Shown here piece by piece: positions 852 through 58,000 of a stretch of 64,000 bases of DNA. The notes under the pieces are model-generated. The model made no database searches. It was not told the origin of the DNA and saw only the letters and a program-made list of their open reading frames with translations. How positions within the stretch are numbered: position 1 is the stretch's first letter; every line of letters begins with the position of its first letter. Location of the stretch: contig OX637339.1 in NCBI GenBank assembly GCA_951799405.1, forward strand, positions 18,166,001 through 18,230,000, read 5' to 3'. The stretch comes from Agapetus fuscipes (taxonomy: Eukaryota > Arthropoda > Insecta > Trichoptera > Glossosomatidae). A program made the translations under genes and the position numbers.

Positions 852-1005
852 ATCCTCCTGGTCCACCATACATCGAAGGTTACACCAATGGAGAGACGGT
901 CCGCCGTGGACAGACTGTGGAGCTGATGTGCAGATCTAGAGGTGGAAACCCTCCAGCGCAGCTGGTCTGGTACAAGAACAGCGACCAGATCCAGATGGCT
1001 TACAG
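852..1005 (+). CDS. sns: Exon 1 in window: first half of Ig domain a
   Basis: Acceptor follows ttcttccag; donor is gtaaga. Enters in phase 1 and leaves in phase 2. It encodes the start PPGPPYIEGY, the B-strand Cys in VELMCRSRGG, and the C-strand Trp in NPPAQLVWYKN. It is isolated from exon 2 by a 33.9-kb intron that cuts this Ig domain in the middle. Confidence 0.88.
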
Positions 1006-31000: not shown

Positions 31001-34000
31001 ATGCTTGCATTCCATGCCGAGAGCACGGGTTCGATCTCAAGGTTTACTCAGCCTTCACAAGAAATGAGAACCAGCCCCCCCCAAGGAGCTGTGAAACCCC
31101 CACTTCAACTGAAAGTGGTTAAAAAAAAAAAAAAAAATTAGACTGATTTATTTGGTGAGCGCTGTTTTTGTGTGTATCACACCTCAAGAGCCCTCTGCGA
31201 GCTTGGTCGTCGCTGTAGAAAGCGCCAATTCTCAAGCAAGACCCAGTTGTTGTAAGGCTGGATGGACCTTTTGATGACCGGTCTTTGGTAAAGGTTTATG
31301 AATTTTTCAACCCAGCGAAGAGCAAATTTGAACATATAAATGGTATATTTTGTGTGCTCCGCCGGGATTCGAACCCAAGACCTTCCAGTTACGAGTCCGA
31401 AGTGTCACCACCTGGACTACGGACCGGTCAACCTACGACCGGTGGTTGGTGTGAGGCCGGCCCCCTTACCCGCAAAAATAAATAGGTCCCGAATCGCCAC
31501 ATGCGATCCCTTCGGGGATAACGCAGGCAAGAAGTTACACTATATGTGTAGCTTAATTGCGTATGGTCGAGGGGTTAGGCGTTACTAACGCCGGTTCGAA
31601 CCCCGCCTGCGTCATGTCCTATCGCCGATAACTTCGGCTCTGGTTCGCCTGGAAGCTGGCACCTGGCGGCTTATTTATAAGGCTACAATAGTTAATTGAA
31701 ATTAAAATATTGAAGGTATTCAGTGCTTTAATGAAATATGCGAATACCAAATATCGATACCTTAAAGATCAAACTGAATTAGTGTCGTATTTAGCTTGCA
31801 TTCGTTTATCACATAAATGCACCTTTTTCCTATTTCCTACGAGAAGAAAAAAAAAAGTATGAAAATCCTGTAATTTAGAAGTTTTTCAAGAGCACTTACT
31901 ATGACAAGTTACACACAATAAAATGTTTTATCCACGATTTTTCAAATCAGTCATTTGAAAAGTATGACAGGAAAAACACTGAAAGATAGAGTGAGAAACG
32001 AATGGGTTCTGAAAGAATGCGGAGTAAAAGAAAGCGTGAAAGTGAAAGTTCAAAGAAGTATGATGCGATGGTTTGGACATATTGAAAGTATGAATGAAGA
32101 CCGACTAACAAAAAGAGTGTAAAACGGGAATATAATAGGTAAGCGTGGAAGGGGAAGACCTAGGAAAGAATGGATTGTTCAGATAAGTGAGATTGCGAAT
32201 GAATGGAATCTACAGAGTGTAAACAAGAGAAGAGCGTGCATAAAAAGAGTGATGAAACTAGATGAGATGAAAGAAGTATGCAAGGACAGAGTCAAGTGGA
32301 GGTACTGGCCACCCCTAGAGGAATGGCGGCAGGATACAAGACAATACAAGCACTTATTCAGTTGTACCTTTAAGGTGGCATGATTTACCTGCAAAATGAA
32401 AACAAACGTTTTCTTGTTCAATGAATGAAACAGTGCGAGTAGCAAGCAATACTTGTAGGACGAATTTCGAGGGCTACAAGGTTGTAATAATATAATTCCA
32501 TTTTTCCAACTGGAACATTTACGTTACAACGAAAAACATAATATCGCCGGTGTAAATCTATCGATACAACTTGGCAGTATTTTTTTTATAATTAAATTAA
32601 TTTATTTATTATTTTACTGAAAAGCGAAACCCATTATCATACGAATATATCGACGGTTAAAAGGTAGTTAAAAGGAGAGCAGTTTAAAGTATGAGATTGC
32701 AGAAAAATGGCAAAACTTTTTTTATTTTTTATCATATCATTAAAATTTGTGGCGGGAACATTCAAATATCATTCTGTCATTCATTAGTTCTGTTCACAGC
32801 CATCAGCTGACGCTCTGACTGTTGACGCGACCCAAGGACGCCATCTTGGTTGTCCTTCCACGCAGACCTGATGACGAGGACTCCGCACTCGACTCTCTCG
32901 CGAACAACACGTCTCTCTGACCTACCGTCGTCCATCCGCCATTGTCGCCTTTCTTGATTTCTGTGCCATAATAATTATCTTAGCTTCATTCGTCTCTAAA
33001 TAATTATTATCATTACAAATCAAATACCAAACTGTGTTAATCTCATTCAACAAAAATTCAAGTGTTGAGAGTGTTTTTATTTCCAAATCTTATTTTTCAG
33101 AACATATTCTTTTGGTAATAACGGGAAGTGATTCAGACTTCAGCGACGATCACGACCCCTTATCACCAAAAATTCAAACAGCTCTACAATAAAAAAAAAT
33201 AAAGGTATCTCACCAAATAGGTGAGATTTCGAAAGAATGGAATCTGCAGAGTGAGAATAGAGAAGAGTATGTATGAAAAAGGTGATGAATATTGAGGAAA
33301 TGAAAGTGGTATGTAAGGACAGAAAAAAGTGGAGGCGCATCTGCGGAGGCACCGGCCACCCCTAGTGGAACGGCGGCAGGATACAGTACAGTATTGGAAT
33401 TCCTATTAATGTGGTTTTACGATGTTTTAGGATTTTTTTATCTCACAAACGCCTAAAGGCCAAAATGCCCAAAATTTGTCAGTTACATCAAAAGCATACT
33501 TTGAAAACGCAGTTGTTTGCTTGGGCATAAACAACAACAAAAAATCATTGTACAGCTATGGGAGTTATCGCATTAGAAAGAGCGGAAAATTATATGTAGG
33601 ATAGCATTCATTACTCATTTTTGACCAAAACATCGATATGTTTCTTTATAACAAAAAAAAGACAATCAGGATTATTCACAAAATCACAACACGTTTGATC
33701 CCTATCTGATCCGTTTAAAAAACTGATACTTTTTTTTTCTTCAAGTAAACTGCGTTTTCAAATTTGAACTTACAACATAAATCTATGTATTAACATTTAA
33801 AATTCATATTAAATGCATGCCCACAGACACGTATAAGTTAGGACTTACAAATAAAATGCTGCACGTGTACTTACAAATTAAAATCCAAACCTTAAATGAA
33901 CATAAACCCATTAACTTTTGACGAACCTTCTCTTAAACAAGGATGACATTAGGATAGTGAACCTCTCTTTACAGTGGTTCGGCTCATACCAACCTATAAG

Positions 34001-37000
34001 TCAAGGAATTCGAAATAAGAATAAGCTCTACCTGAAATAGGGCTGGCGTCGGCAAAGTGAACTTTTGTTTTTCAGTAAGGTGGGTCAGTCTCATACCAAC
34101 CGATGAGTTAAGGATAATTGAAAACACCTCTTACAGATAATTAACTTATTAAACTTATTTAAATATTTTGCATCGTTTGCCAAGATACCTTTGTCAGACT
34201 CTGCCTCTCTCGACCAAAAAGATGAACCCCATTTATATCCCTTTTCTATAGATTCCGGTATTTCTGTTCCATGACGTCATAAAAACTGTAACAGTTTCTC
34301 TTTGCCACCGCGCGTTAGACCATTCCAAGTGTAGTGGTCAATGCCTCGGACTCAATGTAGTGGACAATGCCTCGCAATCAGAATGTACACGATTTACGTA
34401 CAAAGTCTCGGTAGAACTTAAAATATCATCTTCAACAGTCAAGTAGTTGGCTCAATCCGATTAAAGTTTGATTTCAACTAACTTCCTTAATAATTTCATT
34501 AGCAGTCATTTTCTGGCTTCATATTCATTTTTCATCATGTGTTTTCGAACCCCCGACCTTTCAATTACCGAAGTCTCAAGCTTTAACCACAAGACTGCGA
34601 AGCTGGGCTGGAAGTCTCATCACCACGGTAATTTCTTGCCTACCGAATATCGGTAATATTTGTATGTAGACCTGTCAATCCAAGATGGCCGCAAGGGAAC
34701 AGCTGATTAGTCTTAATAAAAATATTGCCGATATTCGGTAGGTAAGAATTACCGTGGTGATGAGACTTCCAGCCCAGCTCATTCTGCCATTGGACTGACC
34801 TGACCATTCCTTTCCAAGATGTTTCTGCCACTTTTTCTAAGGATTTCTTCCCGAAATGTTTCTGATCTGTGTCTTCCGCTTGTTCCAGGACTGCTGGCAG
34901 ACTATCAGAGAACCTGTACACCTTCACGGCTGACGCATCCGACAACAAGGCTCGGTACAAGTGTGAAGCCATCAACACCATGATATCCACTCCTCTGAGG
35001 GCTGAAATCGACCTGACAGTGCATTGTAAGTATTAAAACATAAAGATTAATGACGCTTTTCGGATATTAGACGAACCTTGACGGGAGAACTCACATTCTT
35101 ATCGACGTTTCGCTAGCGACGTAGCCAACGTCTTTAGAATACACCCTTTCTGCACGACAACTGAGAATGAACTGATTCTTATTTATGTATCCTCGAACTA
35201 AGGCTATAATTGTGTTTGGAAAAGGTGCTGAGTGGCTATCTGCTAAATTCCTTGTGACCTTAAGGTGACGAGTTAGCGATTCGTGCCTAAAATAATGTGT
35301 ACTGTGATTTTTTTTATCTATGGAGTTCTTTCGCAAGCGCTAGCAAGCTCCAACTTGGATTGATATCCAAAGTGTAAGGAATTTAGCAAAATAGCGCTTC
35401 TGGTTTCCGAATATTGAGAAATTTAAAACAGCCATCTTTCTGTAATCTAAGTTGCTAAGATACATTAACATTTAGAATTGATATTAAATACATGGCCACA
35501 AAGAGACACGTGTAATATGACATAGTTGTTAATCTCGGGTTAGACCATGTTTTATCTGTAGTAATTTGTCTGCTAACGTTTCGTTCCCTCGAGCGGGGAA
35601 CATTTTCATGGCTCGAAGCGACGGGCCACCTTTATGTTCCGCTTGCTTTTGGCAACTGAAAAAAACTATGTCATCTAACACCAACCATGAAAGAGAAAGT
35701 GAAAGTTTAAAACTTTATTAAATAAGAAACTTGTGACTTACAAATTCTGCATGTGTACTAAGACATTAAAATCCAAACCTCAAATGAATAGAAATATCAG
35801 TAAATAACCAAACGGGAGTAGAATAGAAACAGGTGTTTTATATTGAGGTATTTTTTTACAGTCGCACCAGAACAAGTCTCCATATCCGGAGCTACAGAAG
35901 CCAGGGTCGGAGAGGCTGTGGCCTTGACATGCACTACGGCACCTTCCAATCCTCCAGCTGAGATCAAATGGACAGTCACGGGGAAGCAGTACAAGAATGC
36001 AACCACCAAATCCACAGTGTCTCCTGAAGGTGAGTCATCAATGATTTTGGATAGAATTTTGTGACCTATTGTTTTGCCTTAATTGTAAATCTTGTACCAT
36101 TGAACATCTTGAAAGTATGGATGATGAACAATTCACGAAGAAAGTGAACAGAGGAAAGGTCAGGGAAGATCGAGGAACGAATGGATAACCAAGTAGGTGA
36201 GATTGCGAAAGAATGGAACATGCAGAGGGAGAATAAAAGAAGAGTTTGTATGAGGAAAGTGATGAATGTTGAAGAGATGAAAGAGATATTCAAGGACAGA
36301 AAAAAGTGGAGACGAATCTGAGGAGTTACTTTTCACCCCTAGCGGAAAGGCATGTTGTGCCATGTTTTACGGGATAGCGGTACATGAAAAAATCATGCCG
36401 TGTTCCCCGGCTGTAGTCATCTGGAACATAAAGCTTTAAACTCTTTAACTGGGCGGCACTGACAATCAATGATCGAGCTAGCAAGTAGAAGGCTTTTTGG
36501 TCAATTGTCTCACGTTTTTCCTTTCATTGCAGGTGGCTGGATCACAACTTCAAACATCACTGTCATCGTTGAGGCAAACAGGAAGTCTCTGGTCGTAGTC
36601 TGCCACGGTCTTAACATGCAGTTGACTGAAAATGTCGTATCCACACATCACATCAACGTGCTATGTAAGTCATCGTCTCAATATTGTAAATTTGAGGATA
36701 CATAGAGATCCAGGAGGTGACTTGGAGAGATCTTCCCCACTTTGTTTTCTTCGTCTCAAAAAATTTGAAGCCTCAGGACCTCCGGCACCACAATCTTCCA
36801 GGACTCTCTGTCTTGTGGTGCCCCCCTCTATGGTCCCCTCACTCCCAGATCTTCGGCGTTGACCTTGACAACGTTTGCCCACCGCATTCTGGGACATCGG
36901 AGTAGTCTGACTTCGTACTTTGCTAATTATCTTGTATTTCTCTTCATGTACTATGAGCACATGTTCAAAACCCGTCCGTAATCTAGTGAAAACGCTTCGG

Positions 37001-40000
37001 ACTCATTAATGGAAGTTCGTGGGTTTTAAACCCGGCAGAGCACAAAAAAATTACCATTTAAACTTATTTGATAGAGATACCGCCACCTTAAAGATAAAAC
37101 TGAATAAGTGCTGATTCACTGATTTCAGAAATCTCCGATACAACATTTTTTTTGTGAGTAACTTCTCATAGTAAGTGAACTAATTATAAGGTAATACTGA
37201 TGATAGACTCCTAAACTACAGGATTTTCACTCTTCTTTAATGTTACTTCTCGTAGAAAATAGGAAAAAACGTGCATAAATCTGAGAAACGCTAGCTTAAT
37301 ATGTCAGTTATTCAGTTTTACCGTTAAGCTATCTATATATTCTATATAACGATTGGTTAGCTTCTTCAGCTACAGAGAGTTGTGGTCCTTATTTTAAGGC
37401 ATGAATAATGATCATTCTCGAATCATTGAGAATTGGAAAATGTGTGACTTTACTAGAACATCCGACCAAACGCTCGCGCAATCTCAATACAAATACAATG
37501 GTTTCGACATATTTGTGGTCTACCTGGTAATTTATGATGTGTTTTCTCCATGCCCAGATCCACCTTCGGCTCCCATGATAACTGGCTACCAGCCAGGGAC
37601 CGCCTTGGACGCTGGGAAGGTCCAGAAGATCATGTGCATCTCATCAGGAGGAAACCCACTGGCCACGCTGACCTGGTTCAAGAACGAGAAAAAGGTAAAC
37701 GAAACATTTATTTAATATCCTTCACTTTTTTTTTAATAGGTTTGTGAAGAGGAATGCAATTCACCAACATTTTTTTCCTGGTCAGTTGTCTTCGATGAAG
37801 ATGATGAGTTGGGGATTTCTTTATAGCGCCGCTTCGCGACGTAGTCACTCCAAGGGCGCAAAATATTCACGCTTGCTTTTGTTACGAAAGCATCTGTGGA
37901 ACCAGGGTGGAAGTTATGGTCAATGGGCCAGACGTGATTCGAACCAACGTATTCTGTCCCAAATACGCTAGAAAGATCACCCACTTGATCCCTCGGCCAC
38001 AACACCGACCTTACCTACATTAAAGAAAAAAAATTCAATAAGGCACCTCGTACTAGGTTATAAACAGAGGTAAACGCAAACGCAACTAAGCTACACATAT
38101 GTATAACTTCTGGCCGCGTTATACCTGAAGGTTTTCGTATGTGGCGAGTTTAACCTATTTAGTTTTTAAGGTGAGGGTGCCGGCCTTACACCAACCACTT
38201 CAGTTGAAGTGGGGGCTTCCCAGCACCTGAGGAGCCACGTACTCATTTCTTGTGAAGGCTGAGTAAACCTTTCCGGTATTTTATTTTGTGTTTGAAATAG
38301 ACGTCGAAACAGGAAATCATTTCTTTCTAGCCACATTCGACTACTTCGGAAAAAGCGCGGTGAGAAGTGACGTTATGTGTGTGGCTTAGTAGCTTTAGCT
38401 TTAAAAGGTACGATAAATAAATATTTACAACGTTCTCTATGGTATTTAATACCATTTTTAATCAACCATTCATTCATATTCAATTCCATTAAGTTCTTAA
38501 TATATTTGTTTATAACCTCAATATAAGTACAACTGGTCTATTATAACACAATTGTGTTTTAGTATTCATCAGGCGTTATGTTTTTATATTGTTAACTAAC
38601 AGAATGATGGCCTCTCTGGCAGTTAAGGCTCGCTCGTAATGTGAAAAATAAAGGGGTGGCCAATTATTATCCAGCCCTCCCAGGGGCACAATCATCCCTT
38701 ACTTTTAATTACAGACGTACCTTAATATACGACCGTTTTATTTTGTAAACGAGTATATGAGTTACTTGAAAATACGATAGGGAATGCTCTTAGGGCCTGT
38801 TGCACCAAACTCCAATCAGACAAAAATCAAAATTAAGTTTGATTTCTCCCATCAAATCAAGAATTTAGTTGTATATACGTTAATCAGCTGATGTACATCA
38901 TCTTTCCTGTTCAAATATCATCATATTATTATCCCACTTCCAAGAATTATTCAACCGAGGTCTGGAGGCATGGAATGCAAGCATTCTACCAATTGAGCTA
39001 TCGACCTTTTTTACGAGCTTGATCGTCGTCGCTACAAAGCGCCGATTCTCAAGCAAGACCCAGTTGCTGTAAGGCTGGATGGACCTGTGGTGACCGGTCA
39101 TTGGTAAAGGTTTAGGAGTTTTTCAACCCAGCGAAGAGCAAATTTGAAAATTTTAATGGTGTATTTTTGTGCTCCGCCGGGATTCGAACCCACAAACTTT
39201 CCATTCAGAGTCCGAAGTGTTACCACTGAACTAAGGACCGGTCAAAATATGTTAGTTATATTAGCAAGGCTTTAAAGTTTTAACGTTGAAATAAAACAAG
39301 ATACATGTATAGTCCAACTTCTTACCGCGTCTCATCTATTTGGTCCATAGGTGCATTCCTTCTTCGGTCTTCCCCTTCCACGTATTTTTCTGACATTTCC
39401 TCTGTACACTTTCTTCGTTAGTCGTTCATTATCTATTCTTTCAAGATGTCCGAACCATCTCATTGTGGTTTTTTGTACTTTCATTCTTTAATTATCTTTT
39501 ATACCACACTCGTTCATCACCCAATCATTGCGGACTTTCATTTAGTGTATTTCCAGTAATTTTGACATCTCCTCGATCCTCGTAACTCGAAGCATTCGTA
39601 AAACGAGGTCAGTCTCGTCTTGCGAAATACCTTGCTAGACGAATGGCTTCCTCTAAGCGGTCCGAAGTTGGGCCCATTTGCGGAACAAATGCTAGTGTTG
39701 CCCGGCCGCAGTAATACCGCCAACTTGTATTCCCACTAATTCACCCCCGGATTTGGGGATATTTATGGCAGCGTCTCTTATTAAATATTAATTTAATTAG
39801 ACAGCGAGTTATACTTCCGTCACACCTGAACGCGGAATTTGGAAACGGTCGGCAACTTTGTGGGTGAAATATTCCAAATTTAAAATTGTAGGCGTTTCTC
39901 AAAGTATTTCATTTTAATGGAATTCAAACAAGGCAGAAATATACTTAAAGTTTTGATAAATTTAAATTAATAAAAAAATTCAGATACTTAAAATGAACCG

Positions 40001-43000
40001 TTGCAGGAGAGCTTCCATTATTCATGAATCATGACGTTTTAAAAGGTCTATCCAGCCTTACAGAAACTGGGTCTTGCTAAAAATAGGCGCTTTGTAGCAA
40101 AGACTAAGCTCGGAAAAAGTCCGACCGATATCTGAGTTGATAGAATGTTCGCATTCCATGCCGACACCAAGGGTTTGATCCTCCCCGAGGGTGTCAGAAA
40201 TGATTTCTAATTTCGGTATTTATTACAAACCTAAAAATAAATGCCGGCAAGGTTTACTCAGCCTTTACAAGAAATGAAAACCAGCCTCCTCGGGTGTTGG
40301 GAAACCCCCACTTCAACTGAAGTGGTTGGCCCCCGTACCCGTAAAAATGAAAAAGTCCCGAATCGCCACATGCAATAAGTTACACTATTTATTTAGCTTA
40401 GTTACAAAATTATGAAAAATTGGAAAAAAATATATAATTTTTTTCACATTGAAAACGAGTTTTACTTTTAAATATTTTAATTCTCACGCGAATTAAATTC
40501 TTACGTTTTCATACCGGAGATCAAAAGGGCGTGTTTTTACCCGTTCCCCGAATTGCTATCTCTCTCTTGATACTAAACTGAGGCATTCACCAACTTCCCG
40601 ATCTCTGGAAATCTCATTGCAGGATTCATGTTTTAATGTCTCTCACAAAGCAACTCTCGCGAGGAAGAGAGACGGATGCAATGAAAGTAAACAAGTGCGA
40701 AAGAGACAGCGGGAAATGTTGATTTCTGTCATGAAGCGTTCATCGCGAGGAAGAGAGATGGATGCAATTAAAGGTAACAAGTGCGAAGGAGATAGCACTG
40801 AAATTTTGGTTTCTGTTATGAAACGATTGTCGCGAGGAAAAGAGATGGATGCAATGAAAGTAAACAAGTGCGAGGGAGACAGATATCAAAAAAAAAATAT
40901 GAGACATAATATTATATTGGACCGGTCCGTAGTCCAGTGGCAACACTTCGGACTCGTACATGGAAGGTTGTGGATTCGAATCCGCACAAAAATATACCAT
41001 TTATATTTCCAAATGCGCTCTTCGCTCGGTTGAAAAATTCATAAACCTTTACCAAAGACCGGTCACTGAAAGGTCCATCCAACCTTACAACAACTGGGTC
41101 TTGCTTGAGAATTGGCGCTTTCTACAGCGACGACCAAGCTCGCAGAGGGCTTTTGATGTGTGATACACACAAAAACAGCGCTAATCAAATATATGATCCT
41201 AATATATTTTTTTTTATAAACGTCATACGTCAAAAAGAGACACAAGCATAAATTGTAAAGCCGGCGGCCCCCTTACCTGTAAAAATAAATAGTTTTCACT
41301 CGCCGCATGCGAAACCCTTCGGGGATAACGCGGCAAAAAGTTATTATATTGTGTAGCCAAGTTGCGTTTGCGTTTTATGACACTTGGGAAAATCGACCCC
41401 ACAGAGGCTTCGCAAGATTGCCGAAAAACAATTTCGGTGAATTACTCCACCGAACAATCCTTCTAAATACACATTATTAGGGATCCAATCCATCATAGGG
41501 CTTTTGAAATATCTCTCCTACAATATTAAATACTTGAAACCATTTCTCTTCAACAAAACCCGGACCCTTAATAATTTGCAGACGTTTTGCCTGCTAAAAC
41601 CTACCCACTCGCGAATGTTTCAAATTGCGTTGAAGTCTTACAAAATCCATTGAAATTATTTCATACATTATTGGGGCTGTGTCTTAAAAATAAATATTTA
41701 AAAATAATACAAAAAAAAAACAGGGAAAATTTTGTATCAGTTTTTATCTTTAAATATTTTTTATTTATTTAAAAAAAAAATAATTATCTAGTTGAACAAT
41801 TATCATGGACTGAATTTAGAAAGATGATGTCACCCCTGTTTCAGGAAAGGTCGGCAAGAGTTGCAGGGCTTATGTTCATTTGAGATTGGGTTTTTTTATA
41901 CTGTAGGTCCACATGCGGCATGTGTGAGCGCGAAATTATGCGTGTCTGTTTGTGGGAATGCATTTAATATGAATCTCAAATGATACATATGTTTGCAGCT
42001 TAGATTTAGATTTAGAAAGAGCCTGTATGAAGAAGGTTATGACTCTGGAGGAAATGAAAGAAGTTTGCTAAGGACAGAAAAAAATGGCGGTTGATGTGTG
42101 ATGTTGGCGGCTAGGGTTTTTTAAATTAGAATGGGTTTTCTGTTAGTTTTTGATGTCCATGCATGTTATTATTTGTTGATGTTAAAAATGTAATTTGTTG
42201 TGTATGTTCCTTGACTTATAGGTTGGTATGCGGCTGACCACCATGCTGTAAAAAATGGTTCACTTTGCCAATGTCACCCCTGTCTCAGGGAAGGACGGCA
42301 AGAGTTGCAGGGTGTATGTCCATTTGAGATTTGGTTTTTATGTTGTAGCTTCACATGAGGCATGTGCAAGCGCGAGCTTGTACGTGTCTGGCTGTGAGAA
42401 TGCATGTAATGTGAATCTCCAATGTAACATATCTTTGCAACTTAGATTAGATTAGGAACAAAGTTGTTTCGCCAGAGGTGCTTTTCAAATTCACATACAA
42501 AAGCTCCTCTGTCAAAAAAAAAATCGAAACAAACTTGTTTCGCCAGAGGTGCTTTTCAAGTTCACATACATTTTTCTTAGATACTCAATACTTCGAGTAT
42601 TGTGAAAAAACTCGTCCTACTGGTACTGGTCTATATTTTTCACATTTCAACCCTATCGCTAGTGCGCCTTAAACTCTGCTTAGCGCTGATCGTGAATGAG
42701 CGTGAAATTTATTGTTATTAGGGTACACCGAAAATTAACGGCGTTTTAAATTATTAAATAGAATTAACCGTTTCACTAATTTCCCAAGGAAAGAGGAGAG
42801 AGAGCAATTGTTATCTGGCCGAATTTTGAATTTGGAACAAATGAAGGAGAGAAATAATTATGGCCACCGTAAGTTAGGGTGTCTGCCCTTAATTATGGCT
42901 AGAGCAAAAATATTGAAAATACTGTTACGAACTGTAAATTTGTGTGTACATGTACCTAGGCACGTAGCTTGCTGGTGTACATAACTGGAATAGTGTCGAA

Positions 43001-46000
43001 CAGCTAGTATAATGATGAAATAGATTATAGTAGACTACTGTGGAATAATCCACTATAGAAGAATCTGGAATAAACGAGTAACGTCCATACGACCTGTATA
43101 AATATGAACCGCAATTGTCAGTGGAGAGTCAGAGTCGCTTGAAACATTGTGACGCGAAGTCGATATAAGCAGAGCAAGAAAAATAATCAGTGCATTGTAT
43201 TAAGCCGATATTGTGCAAAATAAATCTTGGTAAATAATTAAATTGCAGTTGAATTAAAAGAACCCAAGTAAAATCATAACAATACCTACTATTTAATATT
43301 GTTAGGAATGTGAGTAGTTGTGTGTCATAATAAGTCTCTCTAGAAATAAATAGACACTTAGTAAATAATTAATTGTATTTGGCCTGACCAGAAACAGGTA
43401 TTAATATCATAAATTAATAATTCATTATTGTATATTTTAAGGAATTATTAATTAATAATTATCCCACAGATCAGGGAATAAATATTATATTATTTTATCT
43501 ATGAATTATCCAATGACATCTGTTGAACCAGGATCAAAGTTATGATCAAATGATCCAAGCGGAGATCGAACCAGCGTTATTATATTCCAAATACGCTAGA
43601 AATATCAGCTACTTGTCTCTCTCGGCCATAACACTGATCAGCTTCAAATAAAAAATATATATAAGTAACAAAAATGATAGAAGTAGATAATTTTCATTCA
43701 AGGAAGTGAACTCAGTGTTTTTTTTTATTTTAGCAACACCATCTATTAAGAAAATCTACAAGCACAAACTAACAATTTCCTTTTCTAACTTTCAGATTCA
43801 CTCGGTGACCAAGAAATCTGACACGCAGGTGACGGCAGAGGTCACGGTCCTCGCCAATGTCACGGACAACAACGCGCAGTACAAGTGCGAAGCTGACAAC
43901 AGTGCCACGGACATTCCGCTCTTCGAGAGTGTCATGCTTAGCGTTCATTGTGAGTATGATGATGTCTCTCTCCTTGTCTTGCAAACTGCTACGCCTCCAA
44001 CTGCTTCTATCCTTCACAGCTTTCTTTCAACTTGTCACCTGGACCTTACTTACTTAACTTATCTAAAATAAACCTTGTGACTCTAGTACTTGGGGACTCA
44101 TGAATCAGTTGACTTCTTCATTGTGCTGTTTGTGACATTGTCACTCCAAAGGGGTCACAAGAACAATGATTTGTTCTGGTTGGAGATGTCTCTTGAAGTG
44201 ACTGCATTCTGCAATCTCTTGAACCACAGATGGCAGTCAGTTCCATACCCTTGTATAAAACCGTTATCAACAATCAAATTAATATCAGTTTCATTTGTAT
44301 CTATAAGTTTAAAGAGATATATTAAATAGTTTCTTGATTAGTTATTCTAGTCAAAAGTTGCCGTAATTAATGATGACAATTTATAAAGCGCCTTTTTGTA
44401 ACTTTTCTCACTGCCACTTTCTACTGAATCCTTTGTACGTAAATATGAAATTAACTTGAATATGTTGTAATATTCCAGTCGCCCCGGAAGCCGTCCGCAT
44501 CCAGGTGGACCCCAAGGAGCTGCGCCCCGGCATGCAGGCCAGGCTGACGTGTGACGGAGCCTCCAGCAACCCTCCGGCTGCGCTCTCCTGGTGGAGGGAC
44601 GGTATCCCCATCCACGGTCAGTATACTGTTATATAAACAGAATAAATATCATAAAAGTATAAGCATTTAATGTAAATAAATAATGATTATGGATACTCAT
44701 GGATCGGACAATTGATGATCCTAGTAAGGATGTTGCATCCTATTGGAAGTCCATATGGGAAGAGTAAAAGGTTTAAAAACCAAAAACTGGTCATTCTACA
44801 ACACCAGGAGGTCCCAGGATTCAATCTGCTGAGAGGACTATGGATGACTTTAAATATGGTCCGCAATTAGCAAGGCCGTTGCAACTGTTTGCTCCACAGA
44901 TGGGGATTAGCTCCATCTCCAGGGTTTGACAGTGGGACGGAGAACCAGACTGTCCGGCACATAGTGGAGGATTGCCCCATCAGAAGACATCCTCCTGGCC
45001 TGAAAGACCTCCACGAAGTCACGCCGGGAGCAGGGAAATGGATGGAGGGCTTGAATTTTTGCCTCTGACACGGCGCAATGGCTAAGAAATTTGTTGTGCT
45101 TGCCTGCCATATGAAAAGTAAAGTAAGTATGGATATATAATAAAAAAGTAAACAGCTGTGCCTACCCATTTACATGAATTGAGCTCTGTGAGGGTCCTAT
45201 AGAATATACTGGAATGTAATGGAACTTGCCAGCATATGTGTGAAGGTACTGGGCTACCTTATTTCTGGCATAGCAAGCACAATTATTTTTATAGTAATTC
45301 TCATTCCTACAGCCATCAGAATATAAAAAGGAGCTAGATTTGCCATCATCCCATTTCCCCTGTCGACTCTGACATTTCATATATTTCTAGGTTATGTCAA
45401 CTCTTCAAAGCCCGGTCTACATGGAGGCACCGTCTCTTCAATAGAAATGAAACTGGACATCACTCGAGAGATGAACGGTTAGTAAAAAATATGTTACTAA
45501 ATCTAAATCTTAATCTAAGCTGCAAAGATATGTATCATTTGAGATTCATATTAAATGCATTCCCACAAGCAGACACGCATAATTTCGCACTCACACATGC
45601 GGCATGTGTGATAATATAAATAAATACTAATTATGCTATTTAGTAAATAAATAGTTCTATGAAATACATACTATTCAAAGATCCAGTGACGTCACATCCG
45701 CCTAAATAAAAAAATTCCTGTTTGACCAAAAGTCAAAAATGTGAAAGGGCTATAATTTAAAAATCACGCAAGATATTATTTTTTCAAAAACAAAGATGCA
45801 TAAAAAATGTTGTTCCTTCCTTATAGGTTGGTATGCGACTGACCACCCATGCTGTAAAAATGGTTCATTTTGTCAATGTCACCCCTGTCTCAGGGAAGGA
45901 CGGCAAGAGTTGCAGGGTGTATGTCCATTTGAGATTTGGTTTTTATGTTGTAGGTTCACATGCGGCATGTGCAAGTGCGAGCTTGTACGTGCCTGGTTGT

Positions 46001-49000
46001 GAAAATGCATGTAATGTGAATCTCCTTGATGTAACATATCTTTGCAACTTAGATTAGATTAGATTAGTTGTCTATCATTTTATGAAAAACAACAAAAATG
46101 TGAAATTACCCTATTCGGGGGATGATCGAGGCGACTAACTCCCAAAGATGACCACGCTGATAGCTCCTACAGGATATGTTGGCAGATACGTGCTGTTCCT
46201 TTTACACGGAGCTCAAAAGGATTGCCTCGGGTAGAGAGGAATGGAGGACAACTAACAAGATGGATGCACATTGTCGCCAACCAATCCTAGGGTTGAAATA
46301 CAAAAAGATTTGTGATAATTTAATTTGATTTCTTTGTTACAGGCAACATTTACACGTGTCAAGCGATGAACGAAGCTCTTCAAAGGAGCGTACACGATGC
46401 ACATACTCTGGAAGTACTATGTAAGTCATTATATATACAAAACCTGTTATGGAAATTATTGTATAAAAATATTTACGTGAGTTTATTTACTTACTTACTC
46501 ATAACTTACCTTCTTCCTCTTTTGGTGCCACTTTGATCAAAGATTGGCGATCATCACGGCTATTTTGACAATGGATACTGCGGCTCAAAAAAGGGATTTT
46601 GAACCATTCATTGTCGCAAGTTTTTCAGCCATGATGTTTCCTTGACTGATAGGTTGGTATGCGGCTGACCACCCATATTGTAAAAAATGGTTCACTTTGC
46701 CAATGTCACCCCTGTTTCAGGGAAGGTCTGCAAGAGTTGCAGGGCTTATGTTCATTTGAGATTGGGTTTTTTATATTGTAGGTCCACATGCGGCATGTGT
46801 AAGCGTGAAATTATGCATGTCTGCTTGTGGGAATGCATTTAATATGAATCTCAAATGATACATATCTTTGCAGCTTAGATTTAGATTTAGATTTTAGATG
46901 TCCTTCGGTGTCCCTAAGTTCTTCTCCCCACAATCTTACCCTGTATGATAAGATGAGGAAGGCGGTATTTCTCGTTTCACAAAATGTAACCGAAGTACCT
47001 GAAATTGGGTTTGGGGAATTTAAAAAATGCACGTAATACCATACGTGGTAAACAACAGTTTGTACTTAAATGTATAGCAGAGATAAGGACATTTAAGTGA
47101 GCTGTATAAAATTGTTACATTTTTTATTTTATATTTACGCAATTGACGGGACTGTACACAATGTAATATAATAAAGATATCAATTTCATTTACTTTTGTA
47201 AAAAATATGATTAAACATTAACCAATCAATCATTGTTTATTTCAGATCCACCCATATTCGAACCGCTGCAACCCGAAGTGACAATTGGTGTTGAGAACGA
47301 GTCCTTGACCATCATGGTCAAAGCGGACGCCAATCCTTCCAAGATCACTTACACGTGGACCAAGAATGGACTACCAGTTCCTCAGGCCAATCAGAGTCCA
47401 GCCAGTAAGTCACAATTCCTTTTTTTTTTATTGATTGTAGAGGCATTCAATTCTTCAACTGCGATTGACAGGCATAGGCGTCAAGTGTAAACTTGCATAC
47501 AGTGCGGCTGTCAATCATAGATGTCATCCAACTTTGAACTTATCCCTGACATCTATGTTCAACAATTCAAAAGTCTGCAAGCGGAAATATGCACTAAACC
47601 TTTGTGATTTTTGTTCTTGATTACTAATACATGTGACTGTTCACATAGTTTGAAGTTTCGTCAATCAATTAAGGTAGGAAATCAATGAATGTGCTTGAAA
47701 AATATTCCGTAAGTACTAGGGGTATTTAAATAGCCAGAATATTTAGAAGCGAAAGGCTAAAAATCATTTTGTTTTGTATTTAACCCAAGCAAAATCGAAT
47801 TATTTCGCAGATTCTACCAATATAATAGGTGTAATGTCTTATTTTGAATTAAAACAATGTGTTTACAACGTGGGGTATGTGTGTATAACCTCAAAAAGAT
47901 TTGACAGATACAAAACCTTTGTATTGACAAGAGACTATAGCGCCTCTCGAAGTTAGATTTGTAAATAAACCAACCGAATGACAATGTTTATTCTCGCGCC
48001 CTTTTCAATGTTCCCACCTCATTCTCATAGCCTTCATTATAAATATGGATTTAAATGTTTTTGACAGTTGTCCTAATATTTGAAATGATTTCAATTTGAT
48101 TTTTCTTTCACAGATGGCAGAATCCTGTCTGACGGCCCGTCTGTCAACATAACCCAACTTTCCAGAAATGACGCGGGCGTTTACACATGTGAAGCCATCA
48201 ACTCCCAGGGCTCTGCTGTCACCAACATTACAATTGACGTCCACTGTAAGTTTCATCACATTTACATTACAGCGTAAATCGAAACCACGGTTTTACAGTC
48301 TTCCTTTATTTGTGCAATGTTTTTCTTCTGCTTTTTGCGAATTGCTTAAATATTTATTGTATTTCTTTTACAGATCCTGCCACAATCAAAATGATCTCCA
48401 AGGACATATTGGTGAACCCGAATGAAACAGCCACTCTATCCTGTACAGCAACAGGTAAGAATATATTTTAGTGTCCTAATGTCCTGCTAGTACAGCTGTT
48501 CAGATGGAAAATTTGAAAGTAATCAGGTTATTTTTTAACTTAAAATAATAAGAAATGTAATTTTCGATACGTGAGAGTTGCTTTCCGGCATCTGCTGATG
48601 TACTTTACTTTACTTTTCATATGACCGGCAACCCCAACAATACTCTTGGCCATTGGGCCGCGTCAGAGGGGAAGATCCAAGCCCTCCATCCACTTCCCTG
48701 CTCCTGGCGTGGCTTCATGGAGGTCTTTCAGGCCAGGAGGGTGTCTTCTGATGGGTCACTCCTCCACTATATGCCCGACAGTCTGGTTCTCATCCTGGAG
48801 ATGGAGCTTATTCACATCTATGGAGCGAGGAGTTGCAACTGCCGTGCTCAGTGTGGACCCTGTTTAAGGTCTTCATAGTCCTCTCGGTAGATTGAACCCT
48901 GGGACCTCCTGGTGTGGCAGAGTGATCAGATCTTGGTTTTTAAACCTTTTTGCTGTGATCTATTAGGGCTGAAATTTCTGGATGTTTCGCCCATTCTGCG

Positions 49001-52000
49001 ATGGACTTCTTTAGCGTGAGGATGATGATGTTGATCATAATAGTTTCATCTAAATCTCACCTCGATTGCGTACATCAAAAAAATTATGAAAACTAAATCA
49101 TTTATTTCATACATTTTCAATCTTTATAAAATTGCTATGATCCACATCATCATCATCACGCTGGAGAAGCCCATCGCAGACATGAGCAAAACTTCCGCAA
49201 GCTCCAGCTGTAATAAACAGATCCCGGAAAGCAACTCTCCAGTATCAAAAGCCTGCCGAATAAACCTAACACTCTTATTATAGTCTTTGGCAATATTTTG
49301 TTTGAGTGTCTTAAATTCTTTTTTTTCTCTTTTAAACGTCTCTTGCTTATCATACATGTACATTTTTTTTTTCCTCATTGCAATGATCTTTTTTCTTCAG
49401 GAAATCCTCTGTCGGAAGAGCACATTTCTTGGCAGAGAGACGGCTACACAGAGTTTGACAAGAAAACCCGCACCACGTACAACGCCACCACCGGAACCCT
49501 TGATCTCTACATCAAGTCCACCTCGCGTGATGATGTGGGGGCCTTCAAGTGCAAGGTGGACAACGGGGTGGGCAACGGCAGCGTGCAGGAGGCCTGGCTG
49601 CTGGTGAAGTTTAAACCGGAGATGGATACCAGCCCCAGCTTGGCTAAGGCTGCTGCCAATCAAGGGGATTCTGCAGAGCTTGTTTGCAGGTAAAGATTAT
49701 ATTCATTCAATTAATGTTTATTGTTACATTATATCTTTAATAATAGCTAGAGCTTAAAAAAAGGAGTGTTTTTTCAACAATAGCTAACTGACTTTAAACT
49801 GAAAGAAAACGACTTGTGAAAGACTTGTGAAAATGTTGCAGGTATGGTTTCCATCAATTTAGGCATTTTATGGCAAGACTTCATTAAACGATTTGTATTT
49901 ATTTTTTATTCCCTGATTTCTTTGATCAATTCTTATTTCATGGAATGCATCCTAAGGGTAAAGCCTGAGTGAATTCCGTCTTTTAACGAGTCAGTTTACA
50001 TTGTAAACTAAAAAACAAGATTGAAGTTGACCTTGTAAACTTTACAAGGTCAAATTCAATATTTTTTTTTAATACTCACTAACGAAAATGAATGCTTTGA
50101 GTTTATTGGTGGGTAGTTTTACCCAATAGCAGTATTTTATTCAATTTTTGACCTTATTGCCTTGTAAAAACTAAATAAAAACAAAAAAAAATCACCATTA
50201 GTACTATGAGGGCAGATCCGCGTTCCGGCACCTCTGGAGCTCCAGAGGTTATTTATTACAAACTATTGTCTTTTATTTCAATGAAACAAATTTATTTATT
50301 CCTCCTCAGATGTCTCTCAGTTCCCGAGCCCACCTGGACGTGGTCTCGCTCCGGAGCCACCATCCCCACAGACTCCGGATCCCGACACTCCGTCATCAAC
50401 AGCCGCCTGTCCCAGCTGCAGCACGAGACCCGGCTGAGGGTTCCACAAGTCACCTCCGGAGACTACGGCCGCTACGAGTGCGCTGCAAGGAACAGCAAGG
50501 GGTTCACGTCTTCCAAGGTCATGCTGGACGTCACCAGTGCACCAGGTTGGTATATTTTTGCCTCTTATAATCCTCTCTCATAAATTCATCAACAGCTTAA
50601 TACACAGTGCCACCCTGTTGGAGAGTTACAGGTTGTATTTGCCTAACTCTACTCTCTACTCTTGACTCTACTAATAATTATCACATGTTTTTTTTATTAT
50701 TATGGACACCATTCCTGGAACAATTTGCCCATTGGTGTTCGCTCGAACCAACGTACCACCACCTTCAGAAAGAGACTGAAGACACTGTTTTTTTCCAGAA
50801 GCCATGGCGCCCTTGAGATGGTCTTGGACCATTAAATATCGCCACAGGAAACAAATCATCCATCATCATCATCACTCATTAATTTTTATTTGAAAAGTAG
50901 ATATTTTAAAGTTGGAAGATTGTTAAAAATAAATCAAAATTATGACGTATTACATAGATTATACTCCCATTTTTCCTTCTTCAATCTTCACTCACATTAT
51001 TGTAATATTCTAAATTCCTTTCAGACCAAGTTCTCCAACTGAACGTCGTCAACACCACCCACGATTCCGTAACCCTCACTTGGATCCCTGGCTTTGACGG
51101 TGGACTGACGGCCGCGTACCGTATACGCTATCGTCCCCTCGATGCCAAGACTTACAAGTACGAAGACGTCGCTCCCGCCAACGCCACCCAGTGGACTATC
51201 GGGGGCCTCTCATTGGCCACAGACTACCTCTTCTCAATCATGGCTAGCAACCGACTGGGCCCTGCTAAATATCTACCGGATAATACAAAAGCTACGACTT
51301 CAAGTGAGTACAAAACCCTTAAACAATCCTTTTGAGTTCTTTTGACCCTTCAACTGCGGCTGACACGCATAGGCGTCAAGTGTAAACTTGCACACAGTGC
51401 GGCTGTCAATCATAAAAGTCATCCAACTTCGAATTACTTATCCCTGACATCTGTGTTCAAGAATTCAAAAGACTGCAAGGGGAAATATGTACTACACCTT
51501 TGAGATTTTTGTTCTTGTATAACTAATACCTACATGTGACTGTTCACATAGTTTGAAGTGTCATTAACTAGCTATAAGTTTTGTATAAAACTTTAGGTAG
51601 CTCTTGAGTAGGTACAAAAATTAAATTTTACATAAGTCACAATCATTCAGTACCTATATTTTAAGATCTTACTACTTTATTGAATGTCTTACCTATGTAT
51701 TCTACGGATAACTAACAAAATCCTTTCTCCTTTTTTCACGCAACCTTCATTGGATTCGGTTTGTAACAACAATATTACCCACATAACCTCAAACTCCATC
51801 TGTCATATCAACAACACGAAACCTTATCAACAAACAAAATCAATCAACAATATAAAACAAACGTAACCTAAAAATCAATCTGTCAATTCAACAACATAAA
51901 ACAAACGTAACTTCAAAATTGTCCCTTCAAAAAAAAAACACAACCTCAAAAATTATCTGTCAATTCAAACATGACAGAAGTCCCGCCATCTTTTCATTCC

Positions 52001-55000
52001 CCAAGCTCAGACAACGATCCTGGGTCTTACAACTTCGGGACTTATCCCGGAATGCTCATAATAACTGGGACGATCATCGGGACTGCTCTTATTCTGCTAA
52101 ATGTCCTCATTATCGGGTTCTGTCTGCATAGAAGAGCCAACAAGAGAATCAGGGGTGCCATGGGTAAATTTAAAAATCCAATTTTAACACTATAATTGGG
52201 ACTTTACTAAAACAATAAACGGTAAGGATAATACGGTAGCTTATAAGTACCTACATGTTTTTGCTTTTAAAATCTTAATTAATTTAGTACCCAGGTATTA
52301 AATTTACAAAATGTATTTGTTAAATTAAATTTCGCTTTTAAATAATGCTTCTAAAGACATTGTCTTTGAGGTTATGTTAATTATTCTTCATTTGAAACAT
52401 ATTGAGTTCTCAAAAGTAAGAAAAGTTGCATTAAAATATGTTTACATTGTCATACTCAGGGCGAGAGTTATACTTAAGATTTTAAAGGTGAAATGGTGTT
52501 AAAAAAATAAGTACTTCATCCATCAAAAACACATTGAAATCCTTTGAATATCCTTTTCTACCTCTCACATTTTCTTACTAATATTATTTATTTATGTTTC
52601 TTATTGCCCTTTCTATTTTTATTATTTCTTATAGGTTTGAAATCAACACAGAATTTTTTTTCTGTTTGAAATTTGAGTCAGGGATGCTATTTCGCGAGTT
52701 CAATATCGCAAGGAAAAGAGATAGATGAAAGTAATCAAGTGCAAGGGAGACAGATAACAAAGCAAAAGCCGTCCACGACAGACTTATTGCTTCTATGCTT
52801 ATGCAGATTTTTAAAAAGAAAGACAATGGAGTGACACAGGCTCTTGAAATTGCAATTTAAATTTTTTTGCAAATTCTATTCTGGCTCGCTTAAAATCAAA
52901 TACTGAATTTGTGAAATCACTAAGTTGCTAAAAAACTACTAAGTACTAACTAAGTACTAATAATAATAATAATAATAATAATAATATCAGGCTAATTTAT
53001 TTTAAATTACAAATGATAAGAGAGCGCCGTTTTTGTGTGTGTCATACCTCAAGGGCCCTCTCCGATCATGGATAAGACTTTCTAAAAAGGTGTGTCTTGA
53101 GTGCTCCGCGAAATACATCCATAGATTTGGAGTTCTTCACTCCGGGTGGCAGTCTGTTCCACTCCACCGGACCTGCAACATGGAAAGCGCGGTCTCCGAA
53201 ATTTGTACGAATCTGACGGCGTGGCTGAACCAAATTGACTATTTCATCGCCCGCGGATCTGAGTGTCTGCCTCCTTATACCCATCTCAACAGGCAACATC
53301 ATGTCAGTCAAATAAGGTGGAGCCAAGCCATTGATGGCTTTATATACCATCACACAAACACGGTAGACCACCCTCTCCGGGAAACGAAGCCAATGTAGTG
53401 TTTTTAACAGCGGAGTGATGTGAGCGAATTTGGGTATCCCGAAAATGAGTCTTGCTGCCGAATTCAACACAGATTGAAAGCGATTGAACTGCTTCTTTGG
53501 CTGACCACTATAAAGCGTCGAACAATAGTCAATCCGAGACACCACAAACGCGCCCACTAGGGTCTTGACTGCATCTGACGGTAAACACTTTCTAATAGCC
53601 TTAATTTGGCGTAGTGGAAAAAAAGAAGAAGCTATTGTGGCATCTATTTGCCTCTCCAGTGTCAGATTCCGATCCAGTAAGACTCCTAGAAGTCCCACTG
53701 AATCAGAAGGCTGGATTAGCTTACCTCCTATGGAGAGTGGTACTCCGTTCACTAATAAGTGATATAATAATAATTCTACTAACTAAGTACTAACTAACTA
53801 AGTAACTAAGTACTAACTACTAAGTACTTACTACTAAAGAATCACTAAGTTGCTAAAGAAATTTATTACGAAACAAATATTTTTCTTTAAGAACGCTAGT
53901 CGTGATATCACCCCGCAGAGAGAAATAAAGAAATTCATTTAAGATTCTGACTGTATTGTTTCATTCAACTTTGTTTTGTTTTTATTTTTCATTAATTATT
54001 TTCATTTATTTTTCTCCTTCCCCGTCCATTTCACCCAGGTTCCAATCAAGAGGCCACCAAGATCCCAGACGTAATCCTGGAAAAGGGGGATTTCGCCCAT
54101 CAATTCATCATGGCTGCCTTGGGCATTGGTGCCATTTTGCTTTTGGTCAATATTGCCATTGTGGCATTTTTTGTCTACCGAAAACGGCTGCGGCGACTTA
54201 GAGGTAAGACACTTTTTACTTCCTGTACATTCTCGGCTCACAAGACTTGAGGGCTCAGGGCTTCCTGCACCACAATCTTCCAAGTCTGTCTTGTGCTGCT
54301 TCCCTCCATGGTCCCCTCACTCCCAGAACATTGGCGTCGTCCTCGATTTTGTTTGCCCACCGCATCCTGGGACGTCCGAGTGGTCTAACAAAGGAGAGGG
54401 CACCATCCAAGACATTTCTGATTATCTTGGAGTCCTCTGCACGTAGGTACTATAATATATTAACATTTAATATTCATATTTGGTGCTAGGCTAGCTGCTA
54501 CCTTTCCCTGAAACAGCATTGGTTAAAATCAAACTAAATTTGTACAGCATGGGAGGCAGCCTCATACCAACCAAATCAGTCAAAGAACAAGAAGTGACAA
54601 ATTGTGATATCTTATTAAAAACACAAAACAATTAAAATTAAACAAATTTAAATTTAAATAGGCACTATTTTTGCCAATCCACCACCATTTTTTTAAGCCT
54701 TTGCATATATGTCTTTCATTTCATTCAGAATCATAATCTTTTTCATCATTCTCTAATATGCCATTCTAGCGGAAATGCTAAATGCAGTACGGTGCACCTG
54801 AGTGTCTTTTTAAACTACCTACATAATATGTGTATTGGAATAATGACGCTCTGTACTGTCTTTAGTCCGGCCATGTGACAACACATTCAAAGAGTCCATT
54901 AATCAGCCCATGTTTTCTATTATTCTAATTTTAAATTTGACTTTTAGAACAAGCCGGACAGTCTTCTAAATCTGCCACCATTGAGATGTACGCTCCTTCT

Positions 55001-58000
55001 TCATACAATGACACCATGACGGGCGAAACCCTGAGTTCTGTCAGCGAAAAGTCGGAGACATATTCCAACGAAGAAGACGCAGATGGCAGTGAGAGGGGAG
55101 GAGATGCCAATAGAGTTGATCATCCAGGAGTTATGCACGGAGTCATCATGGGACAGGTACTGTATTTTTCTGTATATATCGTCTTAGATTGTTGTCGGAT
55201 TTTGACCGTTTTTTTTTTAGGTTAATGCATTGATATAATTATAAGGACTGGATTGACTACGACAGCAATGCCTCGAATCATATGAATTGAGCTAACACAC
55301 CCATTTTGAAAAACTCTAAATTTAGTCTATCGGTAGCCTTCCTACCGTCAACAAGTCCATCAATTCAACCAAGCTGGACATTTTAAAAATAAAATCTATC
55401 TTCTATCTAAGTTGAAAAGATATATTGACAATTAAGGTTCATATTATTTAATGCATGTCCACAAGCAGACACGTGAAAGTTCACACGTACCTACACACGC
55501 TGCATGTACACTTACAAAATAAAGACTCAAATCTAAAATAAACATCAACCATGGAACTTTATCATAACCTTCCCTGATGCAGGGGTGGTATTAGCAAAAG
55601 TGAACCCAGTTTGTAGTCAGTTTGATACTTACAGATTTTACTTGGTTCAACCTCATGCCAACCAAGAAACAAAATATTAGTTTTTTTTTTCTCTAAATAA
55701 CTCTGATGTGTGATGTCACCATTCTGTTATCTATGACAGGGGTCGCCAAACTACGGCCCGCGAGCCAAATGCGGCCTGCAAAAGTATTTGGTCCGGTCCG
55801 CAGACACCAACAAAAAAGTTTTGTATTATATATAGAGAACGGAAAGATCGGCCGCGCAAAGACACTGAAAACTTATGTTAAAAATATAATTGTATAAATA
55901 AACTGGAAATGCTTAAAGCCACTGTTTCCAAGTGTCAAATTTCCAAATATTTCCACCCTGGGGGACAAGTCGCCCAGACCCTGTTGGACCGGCATACCAC
56001 CTCGAAATTTCAATACGGCCCTTGGGTAAAATAGTTTGGAGACTCTTGATCTATGAAATTTGAGTTGATTCCATTTTGTTTTATATGTTACTGTGTACTT
56101 TGAAATACTTCTCTCCTCCTTATAATTGCATGTTTGTTTCCAGGCCGTGAGCACATATCTGACCGAGGGAGGAGACGGTCTCCCACTGGCGCCTCCCCCT
56201 CTAGAGTACGCCCCTCCCCGTTACCAGGATACGCCCAACACCAGCACACTGCCCCATCCAAGGCACCACAACATGGCTCAGCACCCTCTGCACCACACCC
56301 TCAACAGGAACTCCAGTAAGACTTCTTTTTCTTTGTCTTCTTACATAGAACTTTACTTTCAAATTGTTATGATTTTATCTGGGACTCACTTTTAATAAAA
56401 TTGTGGTTATATTTATTCCACAGTATTTAGTTTTTAACCAGTTGATTAAATATTTACAATAATAATAACTACACAGTTAAAATTTATTAATTGAATATTA
56501 GACGAACCGTTATGTATAAAAGAACTTAAATTATTCTCAACGTTTCGTTAGTGACGTAGCTAACGTCTTCAGGAGACACCATAGTAATACCACAGACATA
56601 CATTTCATCCTCAGTCATCGTGCAGAGAGGGTGTCTCCTGAAGAGGTTAGCTACATCGCTAACGAAACGTCGAGAATAATTTAAGTTCTCTTATAACGGT
56701 TTGTCTAATATCCAATTAATAAACTTTACCTGTGTAGTTATTATTATTGTAAATGTGTCAAACGACCGTAATTCCAACCTAAACCTAATGCCCGCTTTCC
56801 ACTGCGAGCGGGAAATAGCTGAGCGGGAGCGGGAAATTGCTGAGCGGAGCGTAGTGAAATAGTTTTGGCCTTCCATTGCGAAAGAGTTTTAAAAAATAAT
56901 GGTATTTGCCTTCCACAGCCAACGAGCTCGGCGGAGTGAGCTAGGCGGGAAATGAGATGAGTCAGATGAAAGAGTTGTTTGCCTTCCATCTACAGCGGGC
57001 TTAGCGGAGCCAACTAGTGTGTGACAGCTCGTTGCAGCCTACGCCCAGATCAAACGTTTTAATTATTAATAAAAAGAAGTTTTTTTTTGTTTCGAAAAAT
57101 AAAAAGTGATGTATTATTTTGCTTTAAACATAAAAAGTAGATGTTTGAAATAAAACATACATTTTATTATTTTCAAATTAATAAAATAATGTATGATGTG
57201 TTTTTGTAAATCATGTATGATGTGTTTTATCGCTGTCACGCAACTGCGTGGGTTGGCGCGGGGGGCACGGGGGAGCTGAGTCAGTTGAAAACTAGCGGCG
57301 GAGACCATGACACAGCGGAGTCATTTTTACTCGCTCAGCCTGCTCCGCTCACTCCGCTGTCGGTGGAAGCACTTCTATGAAATTTACTGTTGCTAGTCGA
57401 GCGGAGTCCGTACGGAGTCCGCTGGAAACTCGCTCAACTTTGCGACCACTTTCGTAACTCTTTGTACTCGCTCAGTCCGCTCCGCTGACTCGCTGTCGGT
57501 GGAAGCACTTCTATGAAATTTACTGTTGCTAGTCGAGCGGAGTCCGTACGGAGTCCGCTCCGCTCGCAGTGGGAAGCGGGCATAAGAGTTGATTACATAA
57601 TATGGTTCACTCAGCAATTTCTCTCTTTGTTGGTTTCTCATAGCTAGAGCGTTAATCAATCACTCTATCGCTGCCTACTTCACAGAACTGCAGCCTATTT
57701 ATAAATGTGATCAAGGCCTATTCCCGCGTGTTCCTGAATTGACTAGGCGCCTCTAGAATAAATATTTCCAGAGAGTACCTACCAGAAGTATCAACAGTCC
57801 AAAGTGTCAAACAACTACACACGCACATACACAACAAGTAGGCACACAATCACACAAACACGCAGGCATTGATCTATACATTCGTAACAATATCTGTACT
57901 GTACTGTATCCTGCCGCCGTTCCACTAGGGGTGGCCAGTACCTCCGCAGATGCGCCTCCACTTTTTTCTGTCCTTACAAACCACTTTCATTTCCTCAATA

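Follow-up and report, generated by a model that had tools for sequence, protein, structure and literature searches.

The window analysed here, a stretch of 64,000 nucleotides from Agapetus fuscipes, carries a multi-exon gene whose features are collected in Table 1. All introns of the gene model, from position 852 to the stop codon (TAA at 60766-60768), are of the GT-AG type. The N-terminal part of the gene lies upstream of the window, and the Ig domains described here are those of the window part only. By Pfam (Ig families and fn3), the encoded protein consists of tandem Ig domains followed by one FN3 domain. With a membrane span and a long tail (Pfam, hydropathy), this is the architecture of arthropod nephrin / sticks-and-stones (sns) receptors. 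Among solved structures, SYG-2 of C. elegans is the best match. The 22 best matches of the ectodomain, Lepidoptera apart from two unnamed proteins and one beetle, reach 60-63% identity with it, and for the Lepidoptera nephrins this identity spans about 780-790 aligned ectodomain columns. In a 31-row ectodomain tree, the window protein is sister to 11 rows made up of nine Lepidoptera and two unnamed proteins (100/98). Sequence identity and the placement beside Lepidoptera support the gene as an orthologue of insect nephrin/sns. An earlier sequence-only reading of the window had called it a nephrin-family receptor, and protein searches, Pfam and the structure match agree.

A separate element lies in the 33.9-kb intron of the gene, where two 100% identical 621-bp copies occupy 13416-14036 and 16264-16884 on the + strand, 2848 bp apart. 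Their ends, TGTTATGTT and AACATAACA, are inverted repeats, and the pair is probably a recent small DNA transposon.

Table 1. Features of the nephrin/sns locus, in positions of the window; exon numbers follow the sequence-only reading.
Feature	Position	Strand	Basis
Nephrin / sticks-and-stones (sns) gene, remainder	852..60768	+	Gene model and homology; 21 coding exons besides 16A and 16B
Exon 15: FN3 domain, ends in phase 1	51025..51303	+	Gene model; Pfam fn3 E 7e-8
Exon 16A (likely start): A-type stalk, span, basic patch	51978..52163	+	Stalk and span homology; stalk-length comparison; splice scores
Intron between 16A and 16B, 1875 nt	52164..54038	+	Read from sequence
Exon 16B: B-type stalk, span, basic patch	54039..54203	+	Gene model, splice scores; B-type by profile
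Exon 17: first cytoplasmic-tail exon (EQAGQSSKSATIEMYAPSSYN...)	54948..55156	+	Gene model; tail start matches relatives

The two membrane exons and their splice sites

Exons 15 and 17 are the common upstream and downstream partners of two consecutive exons, 16A and 16B. Each of the two had been described as encoding a stalk, a full membrane span and a basic patch, and hydropathy agrees: the best 19-residue values are 2.48 for 16A and 2.76 for 16B, with one membrane span each plus the basic patch. The span lies at about 52052-52126 in 16A, with a membrane Asn at 52100-52102, and at about 54104-54175 in 16B, with the Asn at 54149-54151. Both exons are of phase 1/1 and join exon 15 to exon 17 in frame, as first read; the frame in fact stays open through A, B, both or neither. 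Since every combination of A and B is in frame, splicing rather than the reading frame must separate the two exons.

The start of 16A departs from the sequence-only reading, which had placed it at 52011. The 33 bases before 52011 encode VPPSFHSPSSD, a peptide resembling what beetles (KVPPSYSSPSLDE) and a stick insect (APPSFHSPSQD) have as A stalk. From the end of FN3 to the membrane Asn there are 42 residues with a start at 51978 and 31 with a start at 52011; in the A-first relatives among the listed matches, this distance is at least 36 residues in 91 of 92 and 31 in one (P0115). Because of the stalk homology and the FN3-to-Asn length of relatives, 51978 is the likely start of 16A, though the splice score favours 52011. 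As acceptors the two sites score 1.03 and 3.73, respectively, the gene's other acceptors reaching 3.01 at the lowest (leave-one-out), and 52011 may be an alternative acceptor of 16A. If 16A starts at 51978, stalk length comes to about 25 residues for A and 22 for B, and the difference of about 13 versus 20 residues that had been claimed earlier falls away.

At the other end of 16A, the donor at 52154 scores -6.63, a value equalled or exceeded by 550 of the 583 other GTs in 50-62 kb, and the donor at 52163 scores 4.26, inside the range of the gene's own donors (68 of 583 other GTs as high). Of the two donors, the usable one is 52163. Lepidoptera exons end in ..KRIR/EQ for A, which corresponds to the 52154 position, and in ..RRLK/EQ for B; relative to them, 16A here probably includes three extra residues (GAM). 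The distance from Asn to the junction, given earlier as exactly 19 codons in each exon, is equal in Lepidoptera, but here equality would need the poor donor 52154. For 16B, the acceptor scores 4.15 (54 of 623 other AGs as high) and the donor 6.91 (20 of 583 GTs), both within the gene's own range. The sequence-only reading had given both exons good splice sites; in 16A the usable ones are 52011 and 52163, 51978 being weak and 52154 very poor.

A hydropathy-plus-basic filter found no third membrane exon on either strand of introns 51304-51977, 52164-54038 and 54204-54947. A candidate span returned by the same filter from intron 50546-51024 was rejected, as stop codons lie directly before it. Simple steric exclusion of 16A and 16B was rejected, as the 1875-nt intron between them is too long for it. 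RNA pairing was considered as another exclusion device: within 3.6 kb there are 8 inverted-repeat pairs of 14-23 nt, mostly A/T-rich and imperfect, and none is convincing. The intron between 16A and 16B also holds a 238-codon open frame on the - strand (53069-53782) that has no Pfam match. By its motifs, it reads like the C-terminal end of the reverse transcriptase of a non-LTR retrotransposon, and this retrotransposon-like frame may have lengthened the intron.

Common origin and spread of the A and B segments

Counted from the membrane Asn as position 0, 16A and 16B share every residue that the sequence-only reading had listed, namely Leu at -2 and -4, Gly at -7, Ile at -8, Ile at +3, Phe at +6 and Arg at +10, +15 and +17. 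Their cores are identical at 11 of 38 positions. The resemblance of each exon to its counterparts exceeds chance: of 38 core positions, 16A shares 29-31 with each of four A cores from Lepidoptera, and 16B shares 15-16 with three B cores that are lepidopteran or lepidopteran-like and 9-16 when all eight B cores compared are included. With a beetle A core, 16A shares 25 of 38. For a profile test of A against B, cores were cut around the membrane Asn and the B columns were permuted within head, membrane and tail regions. The insect profiles (11 A, 13 B) score 22.3 against a permuted mean of -38.4 (sd 9.4) and the crustacean profiles (8 A, 6 B) 29.6 against -28.0 (sd 7.8); over all four tests, two of them mixed, the lowest score is 17 and the highest 30, with permuted means between -28 and -38, the sequences being hand-picked and the exact numbers dependent on that choice. 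In each of the four tests, 0 of 20000 permutations reached the A-B score, with or without the Asn column, and every register shift by 1 to 6 residues brings the score below zero. The Asn-anchored register also aligns the exon ends in Lepidoptera. Profile scores this far above the permuted ones bear out the claim of duplicated exons, and 16A and 16B are adjacent, homologous and of equal phase.

Relatives were gathered in three protein searches with 264, 72 and 159 matches, of which 120, 72 and 120 were listed, giving 199 distinct proteins, all from arthropods; sister isoforms are hidden by the clustering of the matches at 90%. As the core finder accepts only segments with an Asn, this residue is present in all cores by design; 197 of the 199 relatives passed, and the two that failed also have Asn in the span. 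By core profile, P0112, P0113, P0187, P0188, P0193 and P0194 are B (margins 1.6 to 21) and were set to A by their A-like stalks. Segments missed by the core finder were recognised by eye in P0010, P0117 and P0197 (set to A+B), P0199 (to A) and P0163 (to B).

With these hand corrections included, and with species and order labels assigned by hand (7 proteins are without a name), the listed matches comprise 191 pancrustacean proteins, 68 with A only, 95 with B only and 28 with both. A and B types occur in Lepidoptera, Coleoptera, Diptera, Hemiptera, Phasmatodea, Orthoptera and Psocodea (the A type of Psocodea by eye only), and among the listed matches also in branchiopods, malacostracans and an ostracod. 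Both are seen in 41 of the 147 named species listed, and the single mayfly protein in the list is B. A search of related species had been proposed as a check, and the pair is present in them. Wherever a listed protein has both types, A precedes B (28 of 28; 25 by script, 3 by eye). The listed proteins of chelicerates (six) and myriapods (two) have a single B-like span in 8 of 8 cases. Because chelicerate and myriapod proteins show this single B-like segment, the data suggest one duplication near the base of Pancrustacea as the simplest history. In four chelicerate proteins (P0172, P0173, P0174 and P0175), the lone anchor opens with an A-like stalk (TSSE.P) and becomes B-like further on (..VLS.KGELPRIIII), as though an undivided ancestral form had been retained.

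The contrast between the types was counted on distinct pancrustacean cores, 63 A and 84 B, which are not balanced by species and include many from Drosophila. GxxxG at -11/-7 is found in 45 of 63 A cores and 0 of 84 B cores, at least two Cys at +4 to +9 in 43 of 63 and 1 of 84, and His at +9 in 44 A cores and 1 B core. The A segment of Lepidoptera and of the window has a single Cys, and listed branchiopod and malacostracan A cores have at most one. Between groups, similarity is higher among A cores than among B cores in 14 of 15 comparisons of hand-picked sequences, with one tie. Such constancy of the A helix suggests contacts made by the helix itself, and since it is constrained even inside the membrane, the anchor probably has a function in its own right.

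Annotated isoforms and competing explanations

Alternative use of the two segments, as earlier proposed, is visible in annotation. Separate A-only and B-only proteins are listed for 15 species, all of them flies. When one pair was compared per species, 13 of 15 were letter-identical outside the swapped exon, as in D. suzukii X1 and X2, and the Ceratitis and Bactrocera oleae pairs differ elsewhere as well as in the exon. In the 13 pairs the whole span is swapped with ectodomain and tail unchanged, and the gene model predicts the same for the window. The listed matches also include 102 pancrustacean models labelled 'isoform X', presumably NCBI predicted models and taken here as annotation; 46 are A, 50 are B and 6 are both, leaving 96 of 102 with one segment. 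The six are Anastrepha obliqua X1, Lucilia X5, Bactrocera dorsalis X1, D. bipectinata X7, Artemia X2 and Cylas X3, and in Lucilia and A. obliqua adding the B exon to the A form gives exactly the A+B protein. The mutual exclusion first supposed is thus a rule in annotation and not absolute, as these six models and the 28 of 191 pancrustacean proteins list both exons in a row. Agapetus fuscipes presumably splices 16A and 16B one at a time as its relatives do. Small further splice variants at anchor-exon borders are seen in Musca (P0148/P0149), Zeugodacus (P0153/P0154) and D. kikkawai (P0139/P0141), with an extra Glu before the B stalk or DNSQL replacing V after the B basic patch.

Sequence and public gene models together show that the pair exists, that its two members share an origin, that it is spread over insects and crustaceans and that one-at-a-time use is the rule in annotation. 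Alternative anchors from an old duplication, normally spliced singly and with a role in sorting or clustering, are the best explanation as a whole and a probable one. In this explanation, 16A and 16B would descend from an old tandem duplication of the membrane-anchor exon of arthropod nephrin/sns, and splicing would normally pick one, giving two receptors with the same ectodomain and tail that differ in stalk, membrane helix and inner-membrane patch. Confidence in the alternative-anchor part is high. The sorting or clustering role is a tentative addition that we doubt more than we credit. The choice of anchor would alter the location or clustering of the receptor, not what it binds. The A helix in many insects has a GxxxG packing motif and a second juxtamembrane Cys, a possible palmitoylation site, and B is almost always without both, so A could pack or be lipidated and thereby cluster or sort unlike B. 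A may favour helix packing or ordered membrane, which would place it at the fusion site, in the slit diaphragm or in one neuronal compartment, with B located elsewhere. Against this route stands the fact that the contrast is not universal, given the single-Cys A of Lepidoptera and of the window and the at most one Cys in the listed branchiopod and malacostracan A cores. The explanation as a whole must also accommodate the 28 proteins, 6 of them labelled isoforms, that list both exons, the restriction of separate A-only and B-only records to flies, and the weak acceptor at 51978.

The proteins with both exons could instead reflect a pair that is not strictly exclusive, with A, B or A+B transcripts and a two-span form that has its own function, for example as an adhesive form with its tail outside the cytoplasm. 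Every exon combination is in frame, and the labelled A+B isoforms, above all those of Lucilia and A. obliqua, are what such splicing would give. Yet they are only 6 of 102, with the B stalk missing from that of Cylas; the remaining A+B records are mostly unnamed or hypothetical proteins, and two spans would place the tail outside. This alternative is unlikely, though not negligible. Somewhat less credible again is an old duplication without functional difference, each exon being kept merely because it is spliced somewhere and any helix sufficing. Identities of 29-31 of 38 positions between the A cores of the window and Lepidoptera, and of 25 with the beetle, are more than hydrophobicity needs, and both types persist in seven insect orders and crustaceans. 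The wide variation of B cores (9-16 of 38 between the window and eight others) would suit this view, as would the fact that the functional difference is so far one that we infer.

Decay or disuse of 16A in Agapetus fuscipes would account for the poor scores of its likely acceptor and of one donor, but the frame is open, the A-type stalk and span are conserved (29-31 of 38 positions), and usable sites exist at 52011 and 52163, which makes such decay very improbable. That the A and B types are two different genes deserves hardly any credence, although flies do have both sns and hbs (PMC4459997). In the window, 16A and 16B lie between the same flanking exons, and in 13 of 15 pairs a species' A-only and B-only proteins show no difference outside the exon, so the two-gene reading is refuted for the window and for 13 fly species.

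Anchor choice in known receptors

The preferred explanation, alternative anchors chosen by splicing, concerns a receptor family that also includes C. elegans SYG-2 and vertebrate nephrin. In the available parts of the literature, Sns is linked to the fusion of myoblasts, the slit diaphragms of nephrocytes and neural wiring. In the literature searched, which took in main texts and few subscription journals, no account of alternative anchor exons of sns, hbs or nephrin was found. The available portions of PMC9000958, PMC12489029 and PMC4459997, on sns, mention no alternative anchors, and a term search in those of PMC3228551 and PMC2566808 returned no such exons of sns, hbs or nephrin. Public insect nephrin/sns models ('isoform X1', 'X2' and so on) already list A-only and B-only proteins for the 15 species; they are annotation only, and no name shown calls the swap an alternative membrane anchor. 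The pair is therefore of a known kind, that of Dscam1 exon 17, and within the sources available it is present in public gene models and undescribed in print.

The anchor switch could have arisen once near the base of Pancrustacea and been kept in nephrin since, a suggestion held at slightly less than even confidence that would make it, with Dscam1, a second Ig-family case. If so, exchange of the anchor alone would give arthropods a general means of directing one recognition receptor to separate membrane domains, with A going for example to the fusion site or slit diaphragm and B to another domain. Work with single cDNAs has examined one of two receptors if both anchor forms are general in insects.

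In Drosophila Dscam1, exon 17 (17.1/17.2; TM1/TM2) likewise offers alternative exons for the membrane segment of an Ig-family receptor, one being used per transcript. According to the available part of PMC2566808, TM1 forms are largely dendritic and TM2 forms are enriched in axons. The choice of nephrin anchor would work like the switch between exons 17.1 and 17.2, in a different gene and with an effect on targeting that has been shown for Dscam1 and that we infer for nephrin/sns.
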